Source: Oasisia sp. SBJ-2009 (taxonomy: Eukaryota > Annelida > Polychaeta > Sabellida > Siboglinidae). Taken from it: a stretch of 64,000 nucleotides of DNA. The notes under the pieces are model-generated. The model saw only the letters and a list, made by a program, of their open reading frames with translations. It made no database searches and had not been told where the DNA came from. The translations under genes were made by a program, and so were the position numbers. Shown piece by piece: positions 3,549 through 59,324 of this stretch (positions are counted from its first letter, which is position 1; the number at the start of each line of letters is the position of its first letter). The stretch lies in contig OZ024857.1 of the NCBI GenBank assembly GCA_964017155.1, positions 4,764,869 through 4,828,868 of the forward strand. The letters are read 5' to 3'.

Positions 3549-7797
<4,249 letters not shown>

Positions 7798-7798
7798 C

Positions 7799-27991
<20,193 letters not shown>

Positions 27992-33784: not shown

Positions 33785-34003
33785 AGTATGTATCACTGTG
33801 CCGTAGTGTGTATCACTGCCGTAGTGTGTATCACTGTGCCGCAGTGTGTATCACTGTGCCGCAGTGTGTATCACTGTGCCGCAGTGTGTATCACTGTGCC
33901 GCAGTGTGTATCACTGTGACGCACTGTGCATCACTGTGCCGCAGTGTGTATCACTGTGCCACAGTCTGTATCACTGTGCCGCAGTGTGTATCACTGTGCC
34001 ATT
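33785..34003. repeat. 20-bp minisatellite overlapping the RP1 stop codon
   Basis: About eleven units of GTATCACTGTGCCGCAGTGT. The RP1 TGA (33993-33991, minus strand) and its last codons lie within the array's first units. Confidence 0.92.
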
Positions 34004-34329
34004 ATCGCCCACCTTGGTACATTCATATACTCAATGATGTATTCAGGATAGCACTGTGCATTGTCAAAGATGACGTAGATCCGTGGGTCGTTCACGTCGT
34101 TCACGCAGGAGTCGTAGCACTTCCCGTATATGTCACTGGGGTTGAGTGGTGGGGGTTTGCGTAGGGCGGGGTGGCCAATTGTGTAGTTTCCAACGAGAAC
34201 CCGCGCTATGAACATCGTATGTCGTGATCTGCACGTCTGCGGGCCAGAGATGGTTGTGTTTTGCCAAACAGGCGCTGGTCCCCCTGTCACTGGGCTGACC
34301 ACTGGGGTGAATGCGTGGAAGATCGGTAA
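33991..34329 (-). CDS. RP1 exon 8 (PARP C-terminal part)
   Basis: Encodes LPIFHAFTPVVSPVTGG, then HTMFIARVLVGNYTIGHPAL, CYDSCVNDVNDPRIYVIFD and YPEYIIEY, the second half of the ADP-ribosyltransferase fold. The final residues and the TGA are supplied by a minisatellite. Acceptor CACTACAG just above 34329. Confidence 0.92.
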   Translation of the reverse strand, partial: LPIFHAFTPVVSPVTGGPAPVWQNTTISGPQTCRSRHTMFIARVLVGNYTIGHPALRKPPPLNPSDIYGKCYDSCVNDVNDPRIYVIFDNAQCYPEYIIEYMNVPRWAIMAQ

Positions 34330-37300
34330 CTGTAGTGATAAAAACATTTGAATGTTTACATGAAATTTACAACGATTTAGAAATATATATGACGGTTTGT
34401 GAATATTTTTTAGCAATTAGTTTATCTTACATTACTGCACCAGAATAGTTATTGTATTTAGAATAGTTGTAATAATAATTTTGTTCATGTTTTATGATAT
34501 CGTAATTCTAAAAAACATCAACTGGTGGAAGATTTTAAATAAACCTGTATGGATGTAAAATACCAGCAAGATGAACCATCCTCTGGAATGGATAATAGCG
34601 ACTATTTGCAATAAGATCAGGCTCGACGAAAATTTTCTTAAAAAGGCTGATTAGTTGAATGACACCTCATAATATATTGTCAGTTAATAGAAAGTTGCCA
34701 AGTGCTGGAACCAACTAGCATTGTGAGAAACCATGGAACTAAGTCCTCAGATTCACATGTTGTTTTTACTTCTTCAATGCATCACATCCTCACAAACACA
34801 CAGCATGGTTTCACAAATTATTCACTTGCACATTTGACGAAGACAAACAGCTTATGTTTGAATAGTTGCTCACAACATGATCAGCATTTCAAAGGTTCCA
34901 TAAACTGTCCTTTGGTCAGCCGGTGGAAGAAGAATATCATGGACAGTTGACGTAACTTGACTGGTCACAGAAAAGGTAATAGTTGGGATACTTAGGAAAA
35001 GAAAGTGCTACAGATCCTTCTTAACATTATTATCAATTGGTCATAGATATTTCAAGTGTCTGGGAATAGTCAAGCAATGGGTTAGTTCCATTCCTAAATT
35101 ATAGTTGATTTTTTACAGTTATTTGGAATCGGAACTTCATGAATACAATTGTGTTAAAATGGACTTGACTAGAATTGTTTCCTTAGCATTTTAAAGTAGG
35201 AAATAATAATTTGCAACTGATCTATCACAAATGGATATTCTGCAATTTAAGAGAATTGACAAAATGGAACCAACCCATCAACTGAGGGTACTACAAGGAA
35301 GGTAAACAGATTACATGTGAAAGCTCAGTTTTCCAAACGTGAGTTGTACCTGCATCTGCGGAGCTCCGAGAGTGCGGAGAAAGTTTTGCAGCGGCATTCC
35401 CACAGTCCCTGGTGTGTTGCGCAAGGTGGCGTTCCCTCCATCCGTGTACATGTGGGCGTACTTCGCATCCCGGGCAAAGTACGAGCCTGGAGCGTAAATA
35501 CACCATAAAAATATCACACACGCTCTTGAAGCAACCTACCAGGAGGGTAGGTGATAATGACTATAGTGGCTCCATCTGGAGATAACCACCAATAATCTCG
35601 GGCAGGGGAATGGCCCTTTGCAGACATAATCAATCCAACTGTTGCTGCCAGTAGTTGTACACTGCCAGTAGATGGAGTTGAACGATCCAAGAAGTTGAAT
35701 GAACACATTGACCAGTGGACCTCCGCACTTGGGAGGAGATGAACTTACCCCACAATCAGCCTGTCAGTATGCTAATTACTCGTCTATAATAGGCTTGAAA
35801 ACTGTAAACATCACCAAGCTATATATCAAACTTGTGCCTTCAGAAAGGGAATTCTATTGTACTGTACTGTAATATGGAACTGACCAAGTGGCATGGTACA
35901 GATAGATGCCCAGTGAACAGATGAAAATGTGGACAGATACTCAGTGACAAAAGAATTGTTTCTATGCATGGGGGGAAGAGATGTGTAGGACTGTACATGG
36001 CTACACGCATATCAGGGTTAATTATCCTGTTATAAAAAAGTTCTTTTATTTATTGTCCCTATGGAATGTTTGTCACTGTTTGACAACTGTCCACTGGGCT
36101 ACTTTCCTACTGTGTCTCCACCCAACCCATGACAGATAAGGCGAAGATGACGACGTCCTACCTTGGCCAAACACCGTGCCATGTGTGCCACACAGGCGCC
36201 AGTCAAAGTTGCCCTTGCAGATGGCATCGACAACGCTGCTAGACGTGCCGTGGAACAGCTTCATTTCTCGCAGCTCCTCGGTGCCGACCTCCTGCAGCAT
36301 CTGTCGTCTCTTCCTGAAGTGCCAGAAGTAAAACAATCTTGTTTAAACAACTTCTCTTCCTGAAGTGTCAGAAGTAAAACAATCTTGTTTAAACAACTTC
36401 TCTTCCAGAAGTGCCAGAAGTAAAACAATCTTGTTTACACTTCTCTTCCTGAAGTACCAGAAGTAAAACAATCTTGTTTACACTTCTCTTCCTGAAGTAC
36501 CAGAAGTAAAACAATCTTGTTTACACAACTTCTCTTCCTGAAGTGCCAGAAGTAAAACAATCTTGTTTACACAACTTCTCTTCCTGTAGTACCAGAAGTA
36601 AAACAATCTTGTTTACACAACTTCTCTTCCTGAAGTACCAGAAATAAAACAATCTTGTTTACACAACTTCTCTTCCTGAAGTACCAGAAGTAAAACAATC
36701 TTGTTTACACAACTTCTCTCCCTGAAGTGCCAGAAGTAAAACAATCTTGTTTACACAACTTCTCTTCCTGAAATACCAGAAGTAAAACAATCTTGTTTAC
36801 ATAACTTCTCTTCCTGAAGTACCAGAAGTAAAACAATCTTGTTTACACAACTTCTCTTCCTGAAGTGCCAGAAGTAAAACAATCTTGTTTACGCAACTTC
36901 TCTTCCTGAAGTACCAGAAGTAAAACAATCTTGTTTACACAACTTCTCTTCCAGAAGTGCCAGAAGTAAAACAATCTTGTTTACACTTCTCTTCCTGAAG
37001 TGTCAGAAGTAAAGCAATCTTGTTTACACTTCTCTTCCTGAAGTACCAGAAGTAAAACAATCTTGTTTACACAACTTCTCTTCCTGAAGTGCCATAGGTA
37101 AAACAATCTTGTTTACACAACTTCTCTTCCAGAAGTGCCAGAAGTAAAACAATCTTGTTTACACAACTTTTCTTCCTGAAGTACCAGAAGTAAAACAATC
37201 TTGTTTACACAACTTCTCTTCCTGAAGTACCAGAAGTAAAACAATCTTGTTTACACAACTTCTCTTCCTGAAGTACCAGAAGTAAAACAATCTTGTTTAC

Positions 37301-40300
37301 ACAACTTCTCTTCCTGAAGTACCAGAATTAAAACAATCTTGTTTACACTTCTCTTCCTGAAGTGTCAGAAGTAAAGCAATCTTATTTACACCTCTCTTCC
37401 TGAAGTACCAGAAGTAAAACAATCTTGTTTACACAACTTCTCTTCCTGAAGTGCCATAGGTAAAACAATCTTGTTTACACAACTTCTCTTCCAGAAGTAC
37501 CAGAAGTAAAACAATCTTGTTTACACAACTTCTCTTCCTGAAGTGCCATAGGTAAAACAATCTTGTTTATACAACTTCTCTTCCAGAAGTACCAGAAGTA
37601 AAACAATCTTGTTTACACAACTTCTCTTCCTGAAGTGCCATAGGTAAAACAATCTTGTTTACACAACTTCTCTTCCAGAAGTACCAGAAGTAAAACAATC
37701 TTGTTTACACAACTTCTCTTCCTGAAGTGCCATAGGTAAAACAATCTTGTTTACACAACTTCTCTTCCTGAAGTGCCATAGGTAAAACAATCTTGTTTAC
37801 ACAACTTCTTTTCCCGAAGTGCCAGAAGTAAAACAATCTTGTTTGCACTTCTTTTCCTGAAGTGCCAGAAGTAAAACAATCTTGTTTACACAACTTCTCT
37901 TCCTGAAGTGCCAGAAGTTAAATAATCTTGTTTACACAACTTCTCTTCCTGAAGTGCCAGAAGTAAAACAATCTTGTTTACACAACTTCTCTTCCTGAAG
38001 TGCCAGAAGTTAAATAATCTTGTTTACACAACTTCTCTTCCTGAAGTGCCAGAAATAAAACAATCTTATTTACACTTCTCTTCCTGAAGTGCCAGAAGTA
38101 AAACAATCTTGTTTACACTTCTCTTCCTGAAGTGCCAGAAGTTAAATAACCTTGTTTACACAACTTCTCTTCCTGAAATGCCATAGGTAAAACAATTTTG
38201 TTTACACAACTTCTCTTAGAGGAAGATGCCACACTTACACAGAGTAGAACTGCCACAAGATTGGGTTCTGGACCCGACGAATGCGCACAATCTCAGCCCG
38301 GGGAGCATGCATTGTTCTGTGGAACATCTTCTCCACGTCCATATACGATTCACTTCCTTGAATCACTTCAACCGTCTTCATATCCTGAAAGATGAACATA
38401 TGTGCCATTACTATGGCAACCACACATATATACAATATCCATAAGAAAATGTTTTGAACAAAATGTCTCTCAGTCAATAAAACCGACATATCTACATTTC
38501 AATGCTCCTTCTCAGCCTATCTTGGGAAAGAGGGCAGTAGTACCCGCAGGTTACACCCTTTTCTTCAAAATTTCATTTCATTATATCCTTAAAATAAAAT
38601 CTGTGGTCATTTTCTATATCCTTTAATAATTTTTTTTATAACTGAATGATAATTAGTATTACATTACATGGAACACACAACAATGTGAATTTGAATCAAC
38701 ATCTCTCATCTGCAGATGAGAGTAACATTTGGAACATTTAAGAATGTATCTTCATGTTATTAATATTTATCTACTTTGTACTTTGAGTAACTTATCTGTA
38801 GACAAACAAGTGAAGAAATAATAATATCTGTTGCCCAATAAACATTTACATTCCTTACGATTTATTTAGGATTATTTAGGATCATAAATCAAATATTTCT
38901 TTTCGTTGTGCTTGTTTTTATAGCCAAGATCTCAAATAAATTATGTATTTTTTATTCTGACATCATAAGAATATCTGCAGTCAGTTAATTTAATTTATAT
39001 CTACTACATGTAAAGCGCCTTGAATAGTTGTAACTAGATTTGAGGCTATATAAGTATATCGATCTATCGATCTATCGATCTATCGATCTATCGATCTATC
39101 GATCTATCGATCTATCGATCTGTCTATTAATTTTAATGTTTAACAGGGTCAGATGACAGGAAACACAAATATTACTCTAAAAGATTAAAAAAAAATTGAA
39201 ATGTCAACTCTGCCTCCACCTACCCCGTTGATGTCCATTGGCTCCCAGTGGCGGGGCAGGGTCCACGTGTCCACCCTCTCCTTCTTGTCCTCCCCTGACA
39301 CCTCACCCATCTGACCCATCATGAACTTGGTCGCGTTCTCGAGAGATTCCTGTTCCAACTTCTCTTCCACAATCTCAATCACCATCGCCGGGAGAGTCTT
39401 ACGCAGCTGACCTGGACAGAGAACACACCGCCATAATGAGGCTCTGGAAGATGCCGTCTTTGCTCACCAGGGGGTGCTGATGCTGATTGGTTTTTTGGGT
39501 CAAATTTCAAAATTATCATCCATGTCAAAATCAAATGCAGCAAGAAAAACAGAAATTTGACCAAGTTGATCGTTATAATTTGACTGATAAGGAATTTGTA
39601 ATATAATTACAATTCATGGTGATAATGTAATGCCATGGTGAGAGATACATTATCTAAATAAATCTAAATTACAATACCATATACCTAGTACAAAACTACT
39701 GTGATATCTTGCTTGTAGTCCAGCCTGTGAGTATGACACTTAATAAATACAAAAATACATTCAAATTGTACAATATTTGTGAGATTTTCCAGATCACTGT
39801 GACATGAATGGTTTATAGTATACTAAATGTCATAATATGTGAACATTGTTTATAGATGGTCTGGTAAAAAAAATTATAAAGATACTTACTAAGAGGGTAG
39901 AAGCTTTCGCATCCCGGATAAAAGCACTTTAATGATCCCTAAAACATAAAAATCATAATATTATTATGCATATATTCCTATTTTAATTTATACTTCCTCA
40001 ACTTATAATATAACACATCCATTACACGCTTTAAGATAACTATCAGCACAGCAAACTACTGGGTATATACAAACCAGTCCCATGACAGGCAATCTCAACA
40101 CGACACTTAAAGTTAAACGTAAACTGTATGTCTCTCATTTAGTAGCAGTTATTCCAAAATTCCAAATACATAATATTATTGTTCTTAATACTACAAGAAA
40201 AACAGGCTTGAAGTTGCAAGTCAAAAACAACGCCTGCAATTTGAATGAAAGCTGGAGCCAAGAAATGCTCAAGATACAAGATCTCGAGTTAAATACTAAA

Positions 40301-43300
40301 CAGCTGTTATTTTTCGTAACTGCATATATTGCAAATTCGACCATTCATGTCCTGCTAATAATAAGATAAGATTCACTGTCACGTGTTATTATTGTAGTTG
40401 ATACAAAAATGTGTACCCAGGGGTCATACAAGTGTGTACACAGGGGTCATACAAGTGTGTACACAGGGGTCATACAAGTGTGTACCCAGTGGTCATACAA
40501 GTGTGTACACATGGGTCATTCAAGTGTGTACACAGGGGTCATACAAATATGTACCCAGGGGTCATACAAGTGTGTACCCAGGGGTCATACAAGTGTGTAC
40601 CCAGGGGTCATACAAGTGTGTACCCAGGGGTCATACAAGTGTGTACCCAGGGGTCATACAAGTGTGTACACAGGGGTCATACAAGTGTGTACCCAGGGGT
40701 CATTCAAGTGTGTACACAGGGGTCATACAAGTGTGTACACAGGGGTCATACAAGTATGTACCCAGGGGTCATACAAGTGTGTACCCAGGGGTCATACAAG
40801 TGTGTACCCAGGGGTCATACAAGTGTGTACCCAGGGGTCATACAAGTGTGTACACATGGGTCATACAAGTGTGTACCCAGGGGTCATTCAAGTGTGTACA
40901 CAGGAGTCATACAAGTATGTACCCAGGGGTCATACAAGTGTGTACCCAGGGGTCATACAAGTGTGTACCCAGGGGTCATACAAGTGTGTACCCAGGGGTC
41001 ATTCAAGTGTGTACACAGGGGTCATACAAGTATGTACCCAGGGGTCATACAAGTGTGTACCCAGGGGTCATTCAAGTGTGTACACAGGAGTCATACAAGT
41101 ATGTACCCAGGGGTCATACAAGTGTGTACCCAGGGGTCATACAAGTGTGTACCCAGGGGTCATACAAGTGTGTACCCAGGGGTCATTCAAGTGTGTACAC
41201 AGGGGTCATACAAGTATGTACCCAGGGGTCATACAAGTGTGTACCCAGGGGTCATACAAGTGTGTACCCAGGGGTCATACAAGTGTGTACCCAGGGCAGT
41301 ACATTCACAAACAGCAAATGATTACATTAAAATATACTAGAGATAAAACAACAATCTGACATCATGTACAGTACAAAATAATCTCAATTTGGGCTATGTT
41401 GGCACTTAGCCATCCCACTCCGAGTTCCCCATTTTATCATCTACTGTATGTCAATCAATACAAATTTAAAAGCATTAGACATCACTATGAAGGAGGAAAA
41501 GCTCAGGTTGAACTCAGATGATTAGATCAGTTGCATTTATTCGATGATTCGGCTATCAACACTGGATGACTTGAGAGACTGAACAGACAATGGGGTCTCA
41601 CCTTTGACTGTTTTGTGAGCAGCGACTTTGCCTGTTGTTGGAGACACTGGCTGCAGCAGCGGTGGTTGTCAAGGCACTGTGACAGGTTGCCTGCTGTGAT
41701 CAGAATGCCACAGCCAAAGCACAGGTTGTGATCAATGGACCTGCCTGTGTTGGACACCCCAGAGGTGCCCGGCTGTGGCTGGCACGTGGCCGGAAGAAGT
41801 CGTTGTTTCTTTGCCACGATGGTTGAGTATGAAGTTCCATTAACTGCGTCACTGAGTGACCTTTTTGGTTGAGGCACACAAGTGTTTGGCCCGGCAGCTG
41901 CACTGAGGGAGACACCAGTGGGAAGGGTGTTACGCATGATGCTTGACACTATCGTAGGAGGCTTGTTGCCAGTAGTTGCTGCATCAAACATCAACTTTGA
42001 ACCGTTTGTCTTGTTAATGGTAGACTGCATTTGTCCACTAGTGAAAGACATACTTGGCATGGTGTGTAAACTCACAGTCGGAGGAGAGATTACTGTAAGG
42101 GTTTTACTCTTTGGCTTTGTGCTGTCCAAATTAGCAATGCAGGTATGGGTTTTACTCTTTGCCTTTGCATTGTCCAGATTAGCAATGCAGGTGCGACACA
42201 TGCCTTGCGTCACACTACACGTGCAGTCCTGCTGTGCAGAAGCTGTCTGCTGTGAGGTCGCCACTGTGTCCGTAACCTTCTTTGTGAGCGCCAACAACGC
42301 ACCTATACATTCTCCAATGCGGTGCTGATTCGTGCCACTTTTCTTGTCAGCGGAACTTGTCAGATGATTTGCTCTCTCCACTGTTGCTGATTGGTCAGCA
42401 CTACTTACACTTGTACAAGGACTAGCAGGGCTCGATGAAACCCCATCACTAGAAAACGAAGGTGGTGAGTTCGACCCAATTGTCCCATTTATACTTGCAT
42501 TGCAAGAGTCGTAACTGTGCAAAATTGGGGAAGATGAGAAATGTCTTGCACTAGTGTCACTGTCATTGCTATTAATGCTTTTAGCAGGGCTACATGGATT
42601 CGACAAAGCCGAGTGAAAAAGGGAATGTTTTCCAAAGAGGTCAGCGCTATCTTGACTGGCATCTGGACTAGCTGGACTTGACAAGGAAGAGTCTGTGTTA
42701 TCTGAAAGTGGGCTTGGCGAATTTCTCCTAGCTACATCGGCACTATCTGTACTTGCCCCAGAACTGACAGGACTTGACACAGCGGTGTCCACGTCATCTG
42801 AACAGTGAGACGGGCAGTGCTTTGTGTCTGTGTTATTTATACATGCATCAGGACTGGCAGGACTGAACAACAAGTCCGCAAACCTGGACGGGAACCTCCT
42901 TCCAGCAATGTCACTGCTAGTCTTACTTGCATCGGGACTAGCAGGACTCCACATGATAGAGCCTTTATTATCAAAAAATGGAGACGGGGAGTTGCTAGCA
43001 GCTACATCGGTGCTATCAATACTTGTACTTGGACTAGCAGGGCTTAATAAGTCAGAAATATAATGAGAAGGGACCTTCCTATCTGCAATGAGTTTGACAT
43101 CTTGAGAACGATGTGGAAGACCGGACGACGGCTGAAGTGGTTTCATGTCGGAATTCCATGTTACGGTGCCATTTGATAATACTTTCAACTGTGGTGTATC
43201 GTTTTGTTTAACATCACCATGATCTGACGGTTGTTCTGGTGAATCTAGTTTGTCCAACAGGTGGTGTAGATTCTTACCCACACCTTCAGTGGTATCATTC

Positions 43301-46300
43301 CTTGGCTTATTACTTGCATTTTCCGACAGCTTTGACAATATCTTGTCTGGAAATCGTTGGTTACTGCCAGTTCTTCGCCGATCACGTCGTACAAATATCA
43401 CATCGTGCTCACTTGGATTACCGTGTTCATCAACCACGATGATGTCATCATCATCACCATCATCTGTTTTAAAGGAAGAAAAAAAAATTGTTAGTTCTAG
43501 AAACATTTTACATTTCTTTTGATGTACACAATTAATATAACTAAATCTCAAAGAGAATGCTGTCTAACAAATAACATGCACATTTGCAGCGGTATTTGTT
43601 AGATATGATAACTAATATATCAATGTTAGTTAATATATCAACAAATCCCCCAAAATATAACAATCACAACTTAATGTTTCACAAGTAAAACAGCATTGTA
43701 CATGACTTGTCATCTCATGGTAGAATTTTTATTAAAATTGTAACAGTTTAGCAAAGCTCATATATATGGACAATAATACAAAATCTGAGAGCACTGTTAC
43801 TGTTAGTTTATCTCAAAAACGCAATGTAACCGAAGAGTAAAACACCCTAAATGGATCCATTGCGGTCATAATCAATATGACAATGTCCAATTAAGCTGCT
43901 TACTTCTTCCAAGGGAGTGGTCACCAGGGCAAAACAACAGGACAAAAGAAGAAGCTTTTCAACAACAAGATTGCCGACATGACAGAGATTTGATCTGTCC
44001 TCTGACAGAAAAAATCTGTCATTATGGATCAATTAATTTAATGTGTTCTCATAATATGTGAGTATAAACATTAATCAAAACACCACAGTGACCAGGGATT
44101 GCAGTGTTGGCTGAGCAATTACTTGATCGACTGTTATTCAGAGGAACTTGGCCACTGTGTCAAAACTCAATCGGGGCAATTTCGTCCACCCTTCATTGCC
44201 TTTGTTTTTTGTAAGAGACTCTATATGCCGTTTCCCATATATCTTGTGTTTATTATGCCAGAGGAAGAACAAATCCCAAGCAGGAAAATGGACAAACATG
44301 TTGTCGACTTCCTGCATGGGTGGAATCTCATTAAGATTATTTCACACAATCATGACTCATGTCCACTCCATTCGAATGTAGTGTAGTGGGTAAGCTAATG
44401 GAAGTGTAGTGGGTAAGATAATGGAAGAAATAATTAGAGACACCATCACTGTACATATGAAAGAAAATGAGCTATTGAGTAAATATCAGTTTGGTTTTGT
44501 AAAGGGCCGTTCAACAGTACTTCAGCTATTAAAGGTATTAGACACATGGACAGAAACGCTGGACAATGGAGGCTGTATTGGTGTAATATATTGTGATTTT
44601 ATGAAAGCATTTGACAAGGTCCCACATGCAAAACTTATAAAAAAAATCCAGAGCTATGGAATAAAGGGAAACATAATTAACTGGATCATAGATCTACTTG
44701 CACATAGAAAACAAAGAATACGAATTAACAACATATTTTCTAACTGGAAGGAAGTGATCAGTGGAATACCACAAGGATCCATGATCGGCCCTCTTCTTTT
44801 TGTTATCTTCATAAATGATCTACCTGATGTTATAAAAAACTCTCATATTTTCTTATTTGCAGATGATATGAAACTTTTTAACCCTATTCATAATGAAGAT
44901 AACTGCAACATCCTACAAAAATATCTCACCTCGGCAGAGAAATGGACAGAAACATCACTATTGAAATTTCATCCTGATAAATGTTGTAACATGCGAATTG
45001 GACGTTCCTCCATAAGAAATGATGGATATACAATGGGTAAAGATCAGAAAATAATTAATAAAGCAGAAACAGTAAAGGATATTGGAGTAACGTTTGACTC
45101 ATCACTTAACTTTGAGGCACATATGTCAGAAAAAATTAATAAAGCCAATTCTATGATGGGGATAATTCGACGCACTTTTGAATATCTAGATGACAAGTGT
45201 TTTTCTACTGTTTTTAAGTCTCTTGTCCGACCACATATCGAGTATGCAAACCAGGTATAGAGTCCATATTTAATTAAACACATAACAGCACTGGAAAATG
45301 TTCAGCGTCGAGCAACTAAATTAATTCCTGGATATAAAGAACTTGATTATAAAGAACGCATAATAAGATTAAACCTACCAACTCTTTCATACCGTCGTCG
45401 CCATGATAGAAATTTACAAAATATTAACTGGGAAATATGACTCTACAGTTACATCAAATTTTGTTACATTAAGGGATAATGAATCACTAACGAGAGGGCA
45501 CAACCTAAAAATATTTAAAGAAAGATGCTGATTAAACATCCGAAAAAATTCAGTTGTATACCGATCTACTGATGTATGGAATAGTCTGCCACAGTCTGTG
45601 GTAGATGCTCCATCAGTACTATCATTTGAAGGTAAACTTGATAAACTATGGAAAAATCACCCTATAAAAATGATTTTACTGCACCACCTCTACTATGGAC
45701 TGTGTCACCTTTATACGCATGCGCACAGTCCCATAACAATGATCAAGACAGAGCTGGCACAAGAGGCAGGAATGCCTAAGTCAGCCAGAAAAGGACCTGT
45801 AACAGTGTAAGAACCTGTACGAATATAGATGGGGGTACATTGATAAAAGCATGTTTCATTCTCTGAGACTCTGGTCTACGAAATGGGTTATCAATGAACC
45901 TAAATAGTTCTGCTTACGTAATTAAGCGGAAAACTGACAATCAAATCAAAGACGAAGAATTTGTTTATCATTCGTTTGTTTTTGTTTATTCTCTACCGTG
46001 CCACTTCCTTCTCTTTCTCTCTCTCGAAAACCCTCTCCATGCCTGTGGATTTTCAGCCTGTGTTTAGACTTAAGTACTGCATTGACTTTTCAAAGTCGAT
46101 CACAACTAAATTTCATAGGATTACCAAGCGTTTCTGTTTGGAGTCTTTTTGTATTGTATGTTCGAAGGCCCTGTTTGTTTACAAGCGAAACTGAAATGTT
46201 ATCATAGGAGTCAAGGTCACTTCACTCACTGCCATAATTTTAGACGTCTTCGCCCTCGTGTGAGTAATAGATGTTCGACTAGTAACTCACCATCAGATTC

Positions 46301-46336
46301 TACAACTATCACACAATCATTCGCCAGTTCAGCCAT
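33991..46336 (-). CDS. RP1: SIM-RING-PARP fusion protein, predicted mono-ADP-ribosyltransferase (972 aa)
   Basis: Eight exons with consistent phases: 46336-46291, 43463-41602, 39938-39890, 39411-39224, 38384-38239, 36313-36162, 35486-35350, 34329-33991. Order: hydrophobic/acidic SIM-like segments (VIVVESD 9-15, IIVVDE 23-28, VIFV 37-40); Ser/Pro-rich repeats; one C-x-C-x6-C-x2-C motif; a RING-like finger (C597, C600, C612, H616, C619, C622, C641, C646); a linker; a PARP domain with LFHGT (H785), GSYFA (Y817), HTMFIARVLVGNYT and YPEYIIEY (954-961). The PARP domain resembles PARP7/11/12, which attach single ADP-ribose units. The finger plus the following YPLSQLRKTLP resembles RNF216 RING1. A joint ubiquitin/ADP-ribose role is inference. 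No WWE or CCCH domain seen. Paralogue RP2 lies directly upstream on the same strand. Confidence 0.85.
34330..35349 (-). other. RP1 intron 7
   Basis: A 1.02-kb intron with no tandem array and nothing recognised. Confidence 0.6.
35350..35486 (-). CDS. RP1 exon 7 (catalytic Tyr)
   Basis: Encodes GSYFARDAKYAHMYTDGG through LRTLGAPQMQ. The Tyr of GSYFA is the second triad residue. After YTDGG it carries an insertion absent from typical PARP12. Donor GTACAA. Confidence 0.9.
35487..36161 (-). other. RP1 intron 6
   Basis: A 675-bp intron, nothing recognised. Confidence 0.6.
36162..36313 (-). CDS. RP1 exon 6 (catalytic His)
   Basis: Encodes KRRQMLQEVGTEELREM then LFHGTSSSVVDAICKGNFDW and RLCGTHGTVFGQG. 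Same length (152 bases) and phase as RP2 exon G. The acceptor is the founding copy of the adjacent minisatellite. Confidence 0.94.
36314..38216. repeat. 46-bp minisatellite filling RP1 intron 5
   Basis: About 42 units of 41-46 bp. In gene orientation each unit contains GTTTTACTTCTGGCACTTCAG followed by GAAGAGA, the sequence of the exon 6 acceptor plus the first exon bases. Variants have CACTTCAG, TACTTCAG or CCTATGGCACTTCAG. Only about 22 bp at the donor side of the intron (38238-38217) lie outside the array. Confidence 0.95.
38239..38384 (-). CDS. RP1 exon 5 (PARP N-terminal part)
   Basis: Encodes DMKTVEVIQGSESYMDVEKM, FHRTMHAPRAEIVRIRRVQN and PILWQFYS, the usual start of PARP7/12-type domains. 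Length (146 bases) and phase equal those of RP2 exon F. Donor GTAAGT. Confidence 0.93.
38385..39223 (-). other. RP1 intron 4 with SINE/LINE-like tail
   Basis: An 839-bp intron. At about 39000-39055, AAAGCGCCTTGAATAG and GGCTATATAAGT resemble the 3' tail of retroposons, followed by an 8-bp microsatellite (39056-39123). Confidence 0.6.
39056..39123. repeat. (ATCTATCG)n microsatellite
   Basis: Eight units of an 8-bp repeat directly after a retroposon-like tail, a common arrangement for LINE/SINE 3' ends. Confidence 0.92.
39224..39411 (-). CDS. RP1 exon 4 (RING extension, linker, PARP edge)
   Basis: Continues the finger with SQLRKTLPAMVIEIVEEK, then LEQESLENATKFMMGQM and WTLPRHWEPMDING. QLRKTLP matches the ELEKVLP helix after RNF216 RING1 (from memory). 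WEPMD marks the start of the PARP module. Donor GTAGGT. Confidence 0.88.
39890..39938 (-). CDS. RP1 exon 3 (second half of RING-like finger)
   Basis: A 49-base exon encoding GSLKCFYPGCESFYPL, the last metal pair C641/C646. RP2 has CKC after this pair; RP1 has CES, losing one Cys. Acceptor ATGTTTTAG, donor GTAAGT. Confidence 0.88.
39939..41601 (-). other. RP1 intron 2 with 23-bp array
   Basis: A 1.66-kb intron, over half of it a 23-bp tandem repeat (40406-41297). Confidence 0.8.
40406..41297. repeat. 23-bp minisatellite, about 39 copies
   Basis: Unit GGGGTCATACAAGTGTGTAC plus CCA, with C/A and A/T variants. Since 23 is not a multiple of three, all three forward frames stay open and read the same residues; these frames are not genes. 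It lies inside RP1 intron 2. Confidence 0.97.
41602..43463 (-). CDS. RP1 exon 2 (SIMs, Ser/Pro repeats, Cys motif, RING first half)
   Basis: The largest exon (1862 bases). Starts DDGDDDDIIVVDEHG and DVIFVRRDRRR, then about seven diverged repeats with SPASPDAS and NSPSPF (42395-43050), a C-x-C-x6-C-x2-C motif (42225-42187), a half-copy of it (TCIANLDSTKPK), a basic AKKQR, and CFGCG...CLDNHRCCSQC. Donor GTGAGA. The open frame past the donor is intron. Confidence 0.92.
42187..42225 (-). other. C-x-C-x6-C-x2-C motif, RP1 copy
   Basis: CTCSVTQGMCRTC, followed by IANLDNAK. Same 13-residue spacing as five copies in RP2. A likely metal-binding knuckle; family unknown to me. Confidence 0.7.
43464..46290 (-). 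other. RP1 intron 1 containing a LINE fossil
   Basis: A 2.8-kb intron in which a CR1/L2-like reverse-transcriptase remnant lies on the opposite strand (44381-45690). Confidence 0.75.
44381..45690 (+). pseudogene. Non-LTR retrotransposon (CR1/L2-like) reverse transcriptase, decayed
   Basis: The RT palm is readable: FGFVKGRST, motif A YCDFMKAFDKVPH, motif B GIPQGSMIGPLLFVIFINDL, motif C FADDMKLF, then LKFHPDKC. The open part ends in a TAG near 45258, where the family has Trp before SPYLI. Reading continues through QRRATKLIPGYK, breaks with a frameshift in the YRRR region near 45400, and has a further TGA near 45530 before STDVWNSLP, the usual C-terminal motif. A 23-bp direct duplication stands at the 5' edge (44381-44426). 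Upstream RT and endonuclease are missing: a 5'-truncated dead copy. Confidence 0.92.
46291..46336 (-). CDS. RP1 exon 1 (start, first SIM-like segment)
   Basis: Encodes MAELANDCVIVVESD plus one base, with a strong donor GTGAGT. The start context is favourable (A at -3, G at +4), and an in-frame TAG lies 24 codons upstream. The one extra base joins exon 2 in phase as Asp. VIVV followed by acidic residues fits a SUMO-interacting motif. Confidence 0.82.

Positions 46337-49602: not shown

Positions 49603-59324
<9,722 letters not shown>

Follow-up and report, generated by a model that had tools for sequence, protein, structure and literature searches.

An RNF216-type RING1 joined to a PARP domain in a protein family of annelids and molluscs

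A 64,000-nucleotide stretch of the genome of the annelid Oasisia sp. SBJ-2009 (contig OZ024857.1, positions 4,764,869 to 4,828,868; hereafter the window, to which all RP1 and RP2 coordinates refer) carries on its minus strand a gene, RP1, whose product combines N-terminal segments resembling SUMO-interacting motifs (SIMs), a first RING finger (RING1) of the kind found in the RING-between-RING (RBR) ubiquitin ligase RNF216, and a PARP catalytic domain. Re-splicing eight phase-consistent GT-AG exons from 46336 to 33991 returned exactly the 972 residues proposed in an earlier sequence-only reading, and the three N-terminal segments, the Cys/His finger, the following SFYPLSQLRKTLP and the PARP domain described there were all found in the chain, so that the combination of SIM-like motifs, RNF216-type RING1 and PARP in a single protein is supported. 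We consider RP1 to be best explained, with a probability of about 0.6, as a SUMO-guided mono-ADP-ribosyltransferase built on an RNF216 chassis.

RING1, PARP domain and SIM-like motifs

The finger of RP1 reads C597-x2-C600-x11-C612-x3-H616-x2-C619-x2-C622-x18-C641-x4-C646, with SFYPLSQLRKTLP following at residues 648-660. A profile search for PARP and RING/TRIAD families had been suggested as a check; Pfam recovered the PARP (E 7e-24, above the family cut-off) and, at E up to 10, no RING, TRIAD or IBR. Against solved structures, the single RP1 sequence matched RNF216 over the RING and its helix (9.7e-06), and a profile of 17 RING1 regions, all from members without an IBR, matched RNF216 at E 1.5e-10. 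ARIH2, the next real RBR protein, followed at 0.01 and RNF144A at 0.24; the F-box/WD proteins that lie between RNF216 and ARIH2 (0.0045-0.009) were taken for chance matches. Among solved structures, RING1 is nearer to RNF216 than to other RBR proteins, and on these profile scores we assign the RP1 RING to the RNF216 RING1 type, as had been proposed.

A protein search with RP1 gave 812 matches, of which the best 120 were listed. The finger was present in all 30 of these that we scanned; most of the other 90 are named as PARP12, TIPARP or ZC3HAV1-like or have further Pfam domains of this sort. With three further proteins, these 30 form an alignment of 33 relatives (RP1 not counted), in which the eight zinc ligands and the Leu-Pro after them are kept throughout, a count that does not equal the number of independent events because some rows are near copies (e.g. 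P0009, P0012, and P0014). All 23 relatives with a named organism are annelids or molluscs, their sources being Lamellibrachia, Owenia, scallops, pearl and rock oysters, mussel, hard clam, Solemya, chiton, limpet, and several snails. Protein searches with RING1 as the sole query sequence returned PARP-bearing proteins in 8/8 and 9/10 matches (query counted in each), the tenth match (P0121) being a sequence that ends just inside the PARP. NCBIfam gave no match above cut-off in P0001, P0034, or P0123. The database name of P0034, 'E3 ubiquitin-protein ligase RNF216-like', indicates that annotation has touched half of the fusion.

RING1 identity between RP1 and P0001, P0002, and P0003 is 48/50, 41/50, and 34/50, compared with 328/540, 64/540, and 96/540 in the middle region, and RING1 is thus strongly constrained among annelid-type members. 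The two PARP parts show 109/128 and 64/68 identities with P0001 and 83/128 and 43/68 with P0002. In an AlphaFold model of P0001, RING1 and its helix (621-700) reach a predicted local distance difference test score (pLDDT) of 85-95, alongside a PARP fold. Fold searches with this model listed 50 matches each, all of them PARP domains, with no RBR chain among the matches listed.

Among solved structures, the PARP domain of RP1 is closest to PARP12 (1.1e-47). Its triad consists of H785, Y817, and I958; His and Tyr are kept in 33/33 relatives, and what we take to be the third position of the H-Y-hydrophobic triad is L in 14, I in 13, and V in 6. An insert of ~63 residues lies inside the catalytic domain of RP1. 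We also considered RP1 as a CCCH/WWE-bearing PARP12 orthologue, which its Pfam scan rules out: at E up to 10 it returned only PARP and one match at E 6.6, with no CCCH zinc fingers or WWE.

The N-terminus of RP1 carries three SIM-like motifs in tandem, recognised in sequence only: VIVVESD (residues 9-15), IIVVDE (23-28), and VIFV (37-40). We counted such motifs, in acidic surroundings, over the first 90 residues of RP1 and 21 members of its sub-family A (22 sequences; defined below), by a rule that does not capture shorter forms, for example PILI in molluscs. The count was 47, against a mean of 14.4 and a maximum of 27 in 500 shuffles and against two expected from the remaining N-terminal part under the same rule. 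The earlier proposal of SUMO reading has its basis in these motifs, from which SUMO binding itself is predicted. A SIM is also listed for RNF216 in figure legends of PMC9834252 and PMC13153464, so that the SIMs of the RP1 family may be inherited rather than added.

Sub-families with and without an IBR

The 33 relatives fall into sub-family A (23/33), to which RP1 belongs, and sub-family B (10/33), in which all seven members with a named organism are bivalves. Sub-family B proteins have RING1, a full IBR, and then the PARP ~20 residues on. Pfam IBR_1 scored above cut-off in P0040, P0122, and P0123 and below it in P0039 and P0124, and was not found at E up to 5 in P0034, P0038, or P0121. A RING1-IBR profile of six sub-family B members matched RNF216 at 8.9e-24 over both domains, stopping before RING2, and the RING1 profiles of the two sub-families align with a probability of 99.5%. 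AlphaFold gave P0037 an IBR-like strand module (pLDDT about 67-87). CUE matches below cut-off occurred in two of the eight sub-family B members scanned (P0121, E 0.032; P0038, E 0.098); none was found at E up to 5 in P0034, P0039, P0040, P0122, or P0123, and none in P0124.

For sub-family A, no IBR was found in the alignment or in Pfam scans of P0001, P0033, P0026, P0004, P0016, and P0028, and in RP1 only 57 residues separate the last RING1 Cys (646) from the PARP start (704). RING2 was not found in the members scanned with Pfam. By Pfam, RP1 is without IBR and without RING2 and its catalytic Cys, and does not have the make-up of an RBR E3 ligase. Because the bivalve sub-family keeps RING1 and IBR and then passes directly into the PARP, it is RING2 whose place the PARP has taken. 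The earlier statement that IBR and RING2 had both been replaced by the PARP thus stands for RING2 with its catalytic Cys, and has to be amended for the IBR, which bivalve relatives keep and whose absence is a trait of RP1's branch. Parsimony suggests the order RNF216, then RING1-IBR-PARP, then RING1-PARP.

Proposed function and alternatives

Under the explanation that we prefer, an ancestral RNF216-type gene encoding SIM, RING1, IBR, and RING2 would have lost the catalytic RING2 and gained a PARP12-like domain in its place. The bivalve branch would have retained the IBR, and the annelid-mollusc branch with RP1, which shows none, carries up to three SIM-like motifs. The SIM array would take the protein to SUMO-modified proteins or bodies, where the PARP domain would put single ADP-ribose units onto these proteins or onto RP1 itself. 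RING1 and its long helix would serve as an inherited docking or assembly module, perhaps for a ubiquitin-charged E2 enzyme, and not as a ligase by itself.

Several observations weigh against this account. RING1 identity with RP1 falls to 19/50 and 13/50 in the molluscs P0025 and P0033, below that of the first PARP part in the same proteins (62/128 and 56/128), and three SIM-like motifs occur in only 8/22 sequences (two or more in 17/22, RP1 counted). A PARP tree with TIPARP as outgroup places sub-family B outside a group of sub-family A and PARP12-like rows (support 80), and sub-family A does not form one side of a branch. The approximately unbiased test rejected neither A and B as a single clade (p-AU 0.37) nor A as a clade (p-AU 0.29), leaving room for two separate fusions; a common origin of A and B is thus neither established nor refuted. 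Mollusc RNF216 orthologues were not among the matches listed in the protein searches.

What RING1 may do depends on its E2-facing positions. According to PMC9834252, RNF216 RING1 contacts UbcH7 via its central helix, C517 lies at a canonical contact, where C517A has no effect, and mutation of Y519 lowers activity; RING1 keeps the ubiquitin-charged E2 open, a state in which ubiquitin is not discharged directly but passes preferentially to RING2. Among the 33 relatives, the C1+2 position (C517 in RNF216) is V, F, or Y in 6 and Gly in RP1, the C2+1 position (Y519) is aromatic in none and Gly in RP1, and the linchpin position after the last Cys is Arg or Lys in 2 and Glu in RP1. E2-activating RINGs as a rule carry Arg or Lys at the linchpin and hydrophobic residues where they touch the E2, and RP1, with Glu there and Gly at C1+2, does not conform to this type. 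The residue after the sixth ligand is L in 20, V in 11, F in 1, and I in 1, and the central-helix Lys is invariant. The lack of conservation at the contact and linchpin positions speaks against a ligase that works on its own and leaves even the docking of an E2 in doubt, so that the earlier idea of E2 recruitment by RP1 finds weak support. Likewise, the RP1 RING was considered as a canonical ligase RING, which the variation of these positions in 33 relatives does not support.

The same freedom of the E2-facing positions to vary would be expected if RING1 were a structural leftover and RP1 a PARP12-like mono-ADP-ribosyltransferase whose function is unrelated to ubiquitin or SUMO. Innate immunity, in which vertebrate PARP12/13 have a role, would be one candidate. 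PARP12 being the closest solved PARP, the RING1 copies without the Leu-Pro (LP) helix in the tandem paralogue RP2 (described below), and the lower conservation of RING1 than of PARP in the two molluscs all fit this alternative. However, RING1 is at least as conserved as the PARP in comparison with the annelid-type P0001 and P0002, a leftover would not need the eight ligands kept in every relative, and the SIM-like motifs are enriched; we regard it as unlikely.

Less likely still is the possibility, favoured in the sequence-only reading, that RP1 is an active SUMO-targeted ligase of the RNF4 kind that also ADP-ribosylates the same targets, its SIMs binding poly-SUMO and its RING1 discharging the charged E2. 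The SIM-like motifs, the intact zinc ligands (33/33), the invariant central-helix Lys, the aliphatic residue or Phe after the sixth ligand, and the strong conservation of RING1 among annelid members are consistent with it. Against it stand the unconserved RNF216 E2-contact positions, the rarity of a linchpin Arg/Lys (2/33), the absence of RING2 in the members scanned, and the open E2-ubiquitin state of RNF216 RING1, which, according to PMC9834252, blocks direct discharge. A stand-alone ligase is not indicated because RNF216 RING1, which holds the charged E2 open, itself relies on RING2 for transfer.

We are more doubtful again about a bolder variant, in which the PARP at RING2's place would ADP-ribosylate ubiquitin, the E2, or a SUMO-bound substrate, with RING1 (and the IBR in bivalves) presenting the open E2-ubiquitin. 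If true, the exchange of RING2 for a PARP would have produced an enzyme acting on its own E2-ubiquitin, a SUMO-directed single-chain writer of mixed ADP-ribose-ubiquitin marks.

RP1 shares with RNF216/TRIAD3 the RING1 ligand pattern and the following LP helix, and the legends cited above give a SIM for RNF216; the bivalve branch adds the IBR and, in two of eight members scanned, the CUE match below cut-off. Unlike RNF216, RP1 has a PARP instead of RING2 with its catalytic Cys, and its branch also lacks the IBR. PARP12, a mono-ADP-ribosyltransferase of PARP clade 3, has the catalytic domain nearest in sequence to that of RP1 among solved structures and the same H-Y-I triad, but RP1 shows no CCCH or WWE by Pfam and carries the RNF216-type RING1, SIM-like motifs, and the ~63-residue insert. 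RNF4-type SUMO-targeted ubiquitin ligases likewise combine tandem SIMs with a RING in one chain; the RING1 of RP1, in contrast, is of the RBR type without a linchpin Arg/Lys, and a PARP is added. DTX3L/PARP9 also couples a RING E3 to a PARP, but does so through two chains in trans and with the RING joined to a DTC domain, which Pfam did not find in RP1 (E up to 10). The Deltex DTC domain binds NAD/ADP-ribose (PMC12687431, in the part available).

Ubiquitin-pathway domains do occur with PARPs in single chains, as U-box-macro-PARP in Dictyostelium and UBCc-PARP in fungi, moss, and algae (PMC2964712 and PMC4245714, available in part). These proteins resemble RP1 in that respect, but their ubiquitin-pathway module is a U-box or an E2 domain and not part of an RBR ligase, the UBCc-PARP proteins fall into a different PARP clade (6), and the sections available do not mention SIMs. 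No report of an RBR or RNF216-type RING joined to a PARP was among the matches listed in the open-licence PMC literature. PARPs fused to ubiquitin-pathway domains are thus known, and the joining of an RNF216-type RING1 to a PARP appears to be new.

Ubiquitin and ADP-ribose signalling are known to meet in trans, as in DTX3L/PARP9 and in RNF114 and RNF166, which reportedly extend ubiquitin at ADP-ribosyl-ubiquitin sites (PMC12583694). The RP1 family, conserved among animals, unites SIM-like motifs, half an RBR ligase, and a PARP in one polypeptide. With a PARP standing in for the ligase's catalytic part, the family amounts to a domain swap made by nature on RNF216, whose gene is mutated in Gordon Holmes syndrome (PMC13153464), and its two branches, one with an IBR and one without, offer a way to test in which order the changes took place. 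Separately, a lungfish protein named MIB2-like (P0084) has MIB/ankyrin Pfam domains listed together with PF00644, which may reflect either a further E3-PARP fusion or a faulty annotation.

Gene model, tandem paralogue, and neighbourhood

The remaining alternative, that RING and PARP exons of two genes were joined artefactually, draws on the RP1 model in the window's species coming from genomic DNA alone, and is hardly credible given that exon 4 spans both domains, that their order is the same in 33 aligned proteins, that the open reading frame (ORF) occurs on transcript-sized contigs, and that RP2 repeats the arrangement. Exon 1 (46291-46336) encodes the start codon and the first SIM-like motif (residues 1-15), and exon 2 (41602-43463) encodes SIM-like motifs 2 and 3, a low-complexity middle, and six of the eight RING1 zinc ligands. 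The final two ligands (KCFYPGC) and SFYPLS are in the 49-nt exon 3 (39890-39938), one intron thus splitting the finger (residues 597-646; 39909-41721). Exon 4 (39224-39411) encodes the helix after RING1 (QLRKTLPAMVIEIVEEKLEQE) and the PARP start LPRHWEPM, with the fusion point inside the exon, and because this one exon codes for both, two wrongly joined genes are ruled out. The PARP domain continues through exon 5 (38239-38384), exon 6 (36162-36313; His785 in LFHGT), and exon 7 (35350-35486; Tyr817 in SYFA), and ends in exon 8 (33991-34329) with Ile958 (YPEYII) and the stop codon.

The nearest relative, P0001, is encoded by an uninterrupted ORF of 1015 residues that lies on a contig of 3380 bases. 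It is 81% identical to RP1 over residues 590-972 and alignable over the whole length, with indels in the variable middle, the pre-PARP linker, and the PARP insert. Of the seven exon junctions, all but 1/2 and 7/8 are free of adjacent indels, and PARP15 structures align to the P0001 model from residue 732-736, which corresponds to the exon-4 fusion point. Because the genomic introns of RP1 measure ~0.5 to 2.8 kb, this contig most likely represents a transcript. Separate transcripts for RING and PARP exons, named earlier as what would refute the fusion, are contradicted by exon 4 and the P0001 ORF, as far as the question can be answered here.

A 46-bp minisatellite of ~42 copies (36307-38217) abuts exon 6 of RP1, and 27 places in it match, on the gene strand, the region of the exon-6 3' splice site (TGG-T/C-ACTTCAG then GAAG), so that intron 5 contains some two dozen acceptor-like decoys. 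A 23-bp minisatellite of ~39 copies lies in intron 2 (40410-41296), and intron 1 holds a reverse transcriptase fragment on the opposite strand (44394-45260, plus strand; Pfam RVT_1 1.5e-29).

RP2, the tandem paralogue adjoining RP1 (49603-59324, minus strand), has its parts in the same order. Eight phase-consistent coding exons were found (59324-57109, 56560-56506, 55489-53934, 53591-53537, 52826-52603, 51666-51521, 50816-50665, and 50099-49603), and a pattern scan upstream within the window gave no convincing candidate for a first exon. By eye, RP2 has one SIM-like motif. Its two RING1-like fingers lack the LP helix and have the appearance of a duplicated exon pair, and the PARP keeps H-Y-I. 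Searched alone against solved structures, the first finger gave 10 matches (best E 0.17), mostly other RING proteins and none of them RNF216. Between the two fingers, the coding sequence contains 11 tandem copies of a 66-bp unit (22 residues; 54615-55343).

A further Cys motif, C-x-C-x6-C-x2-C, occurs at residues 429-441 of RP1 (42225-42187) and had no match among solved structures. In the form C-x-C-x(5-7)-C-x2-C-x3-(L/V) it has one copy in RP1 and five in RP2, and is possibly a zinc knuckle of annelid members. Elsewhere in the window, kinesin-motor-like exons were seen by eye at 7691-25380 on the plus strand, and the one piece tested (11485-11904) matched Pfam Kinesin at 4e-39.

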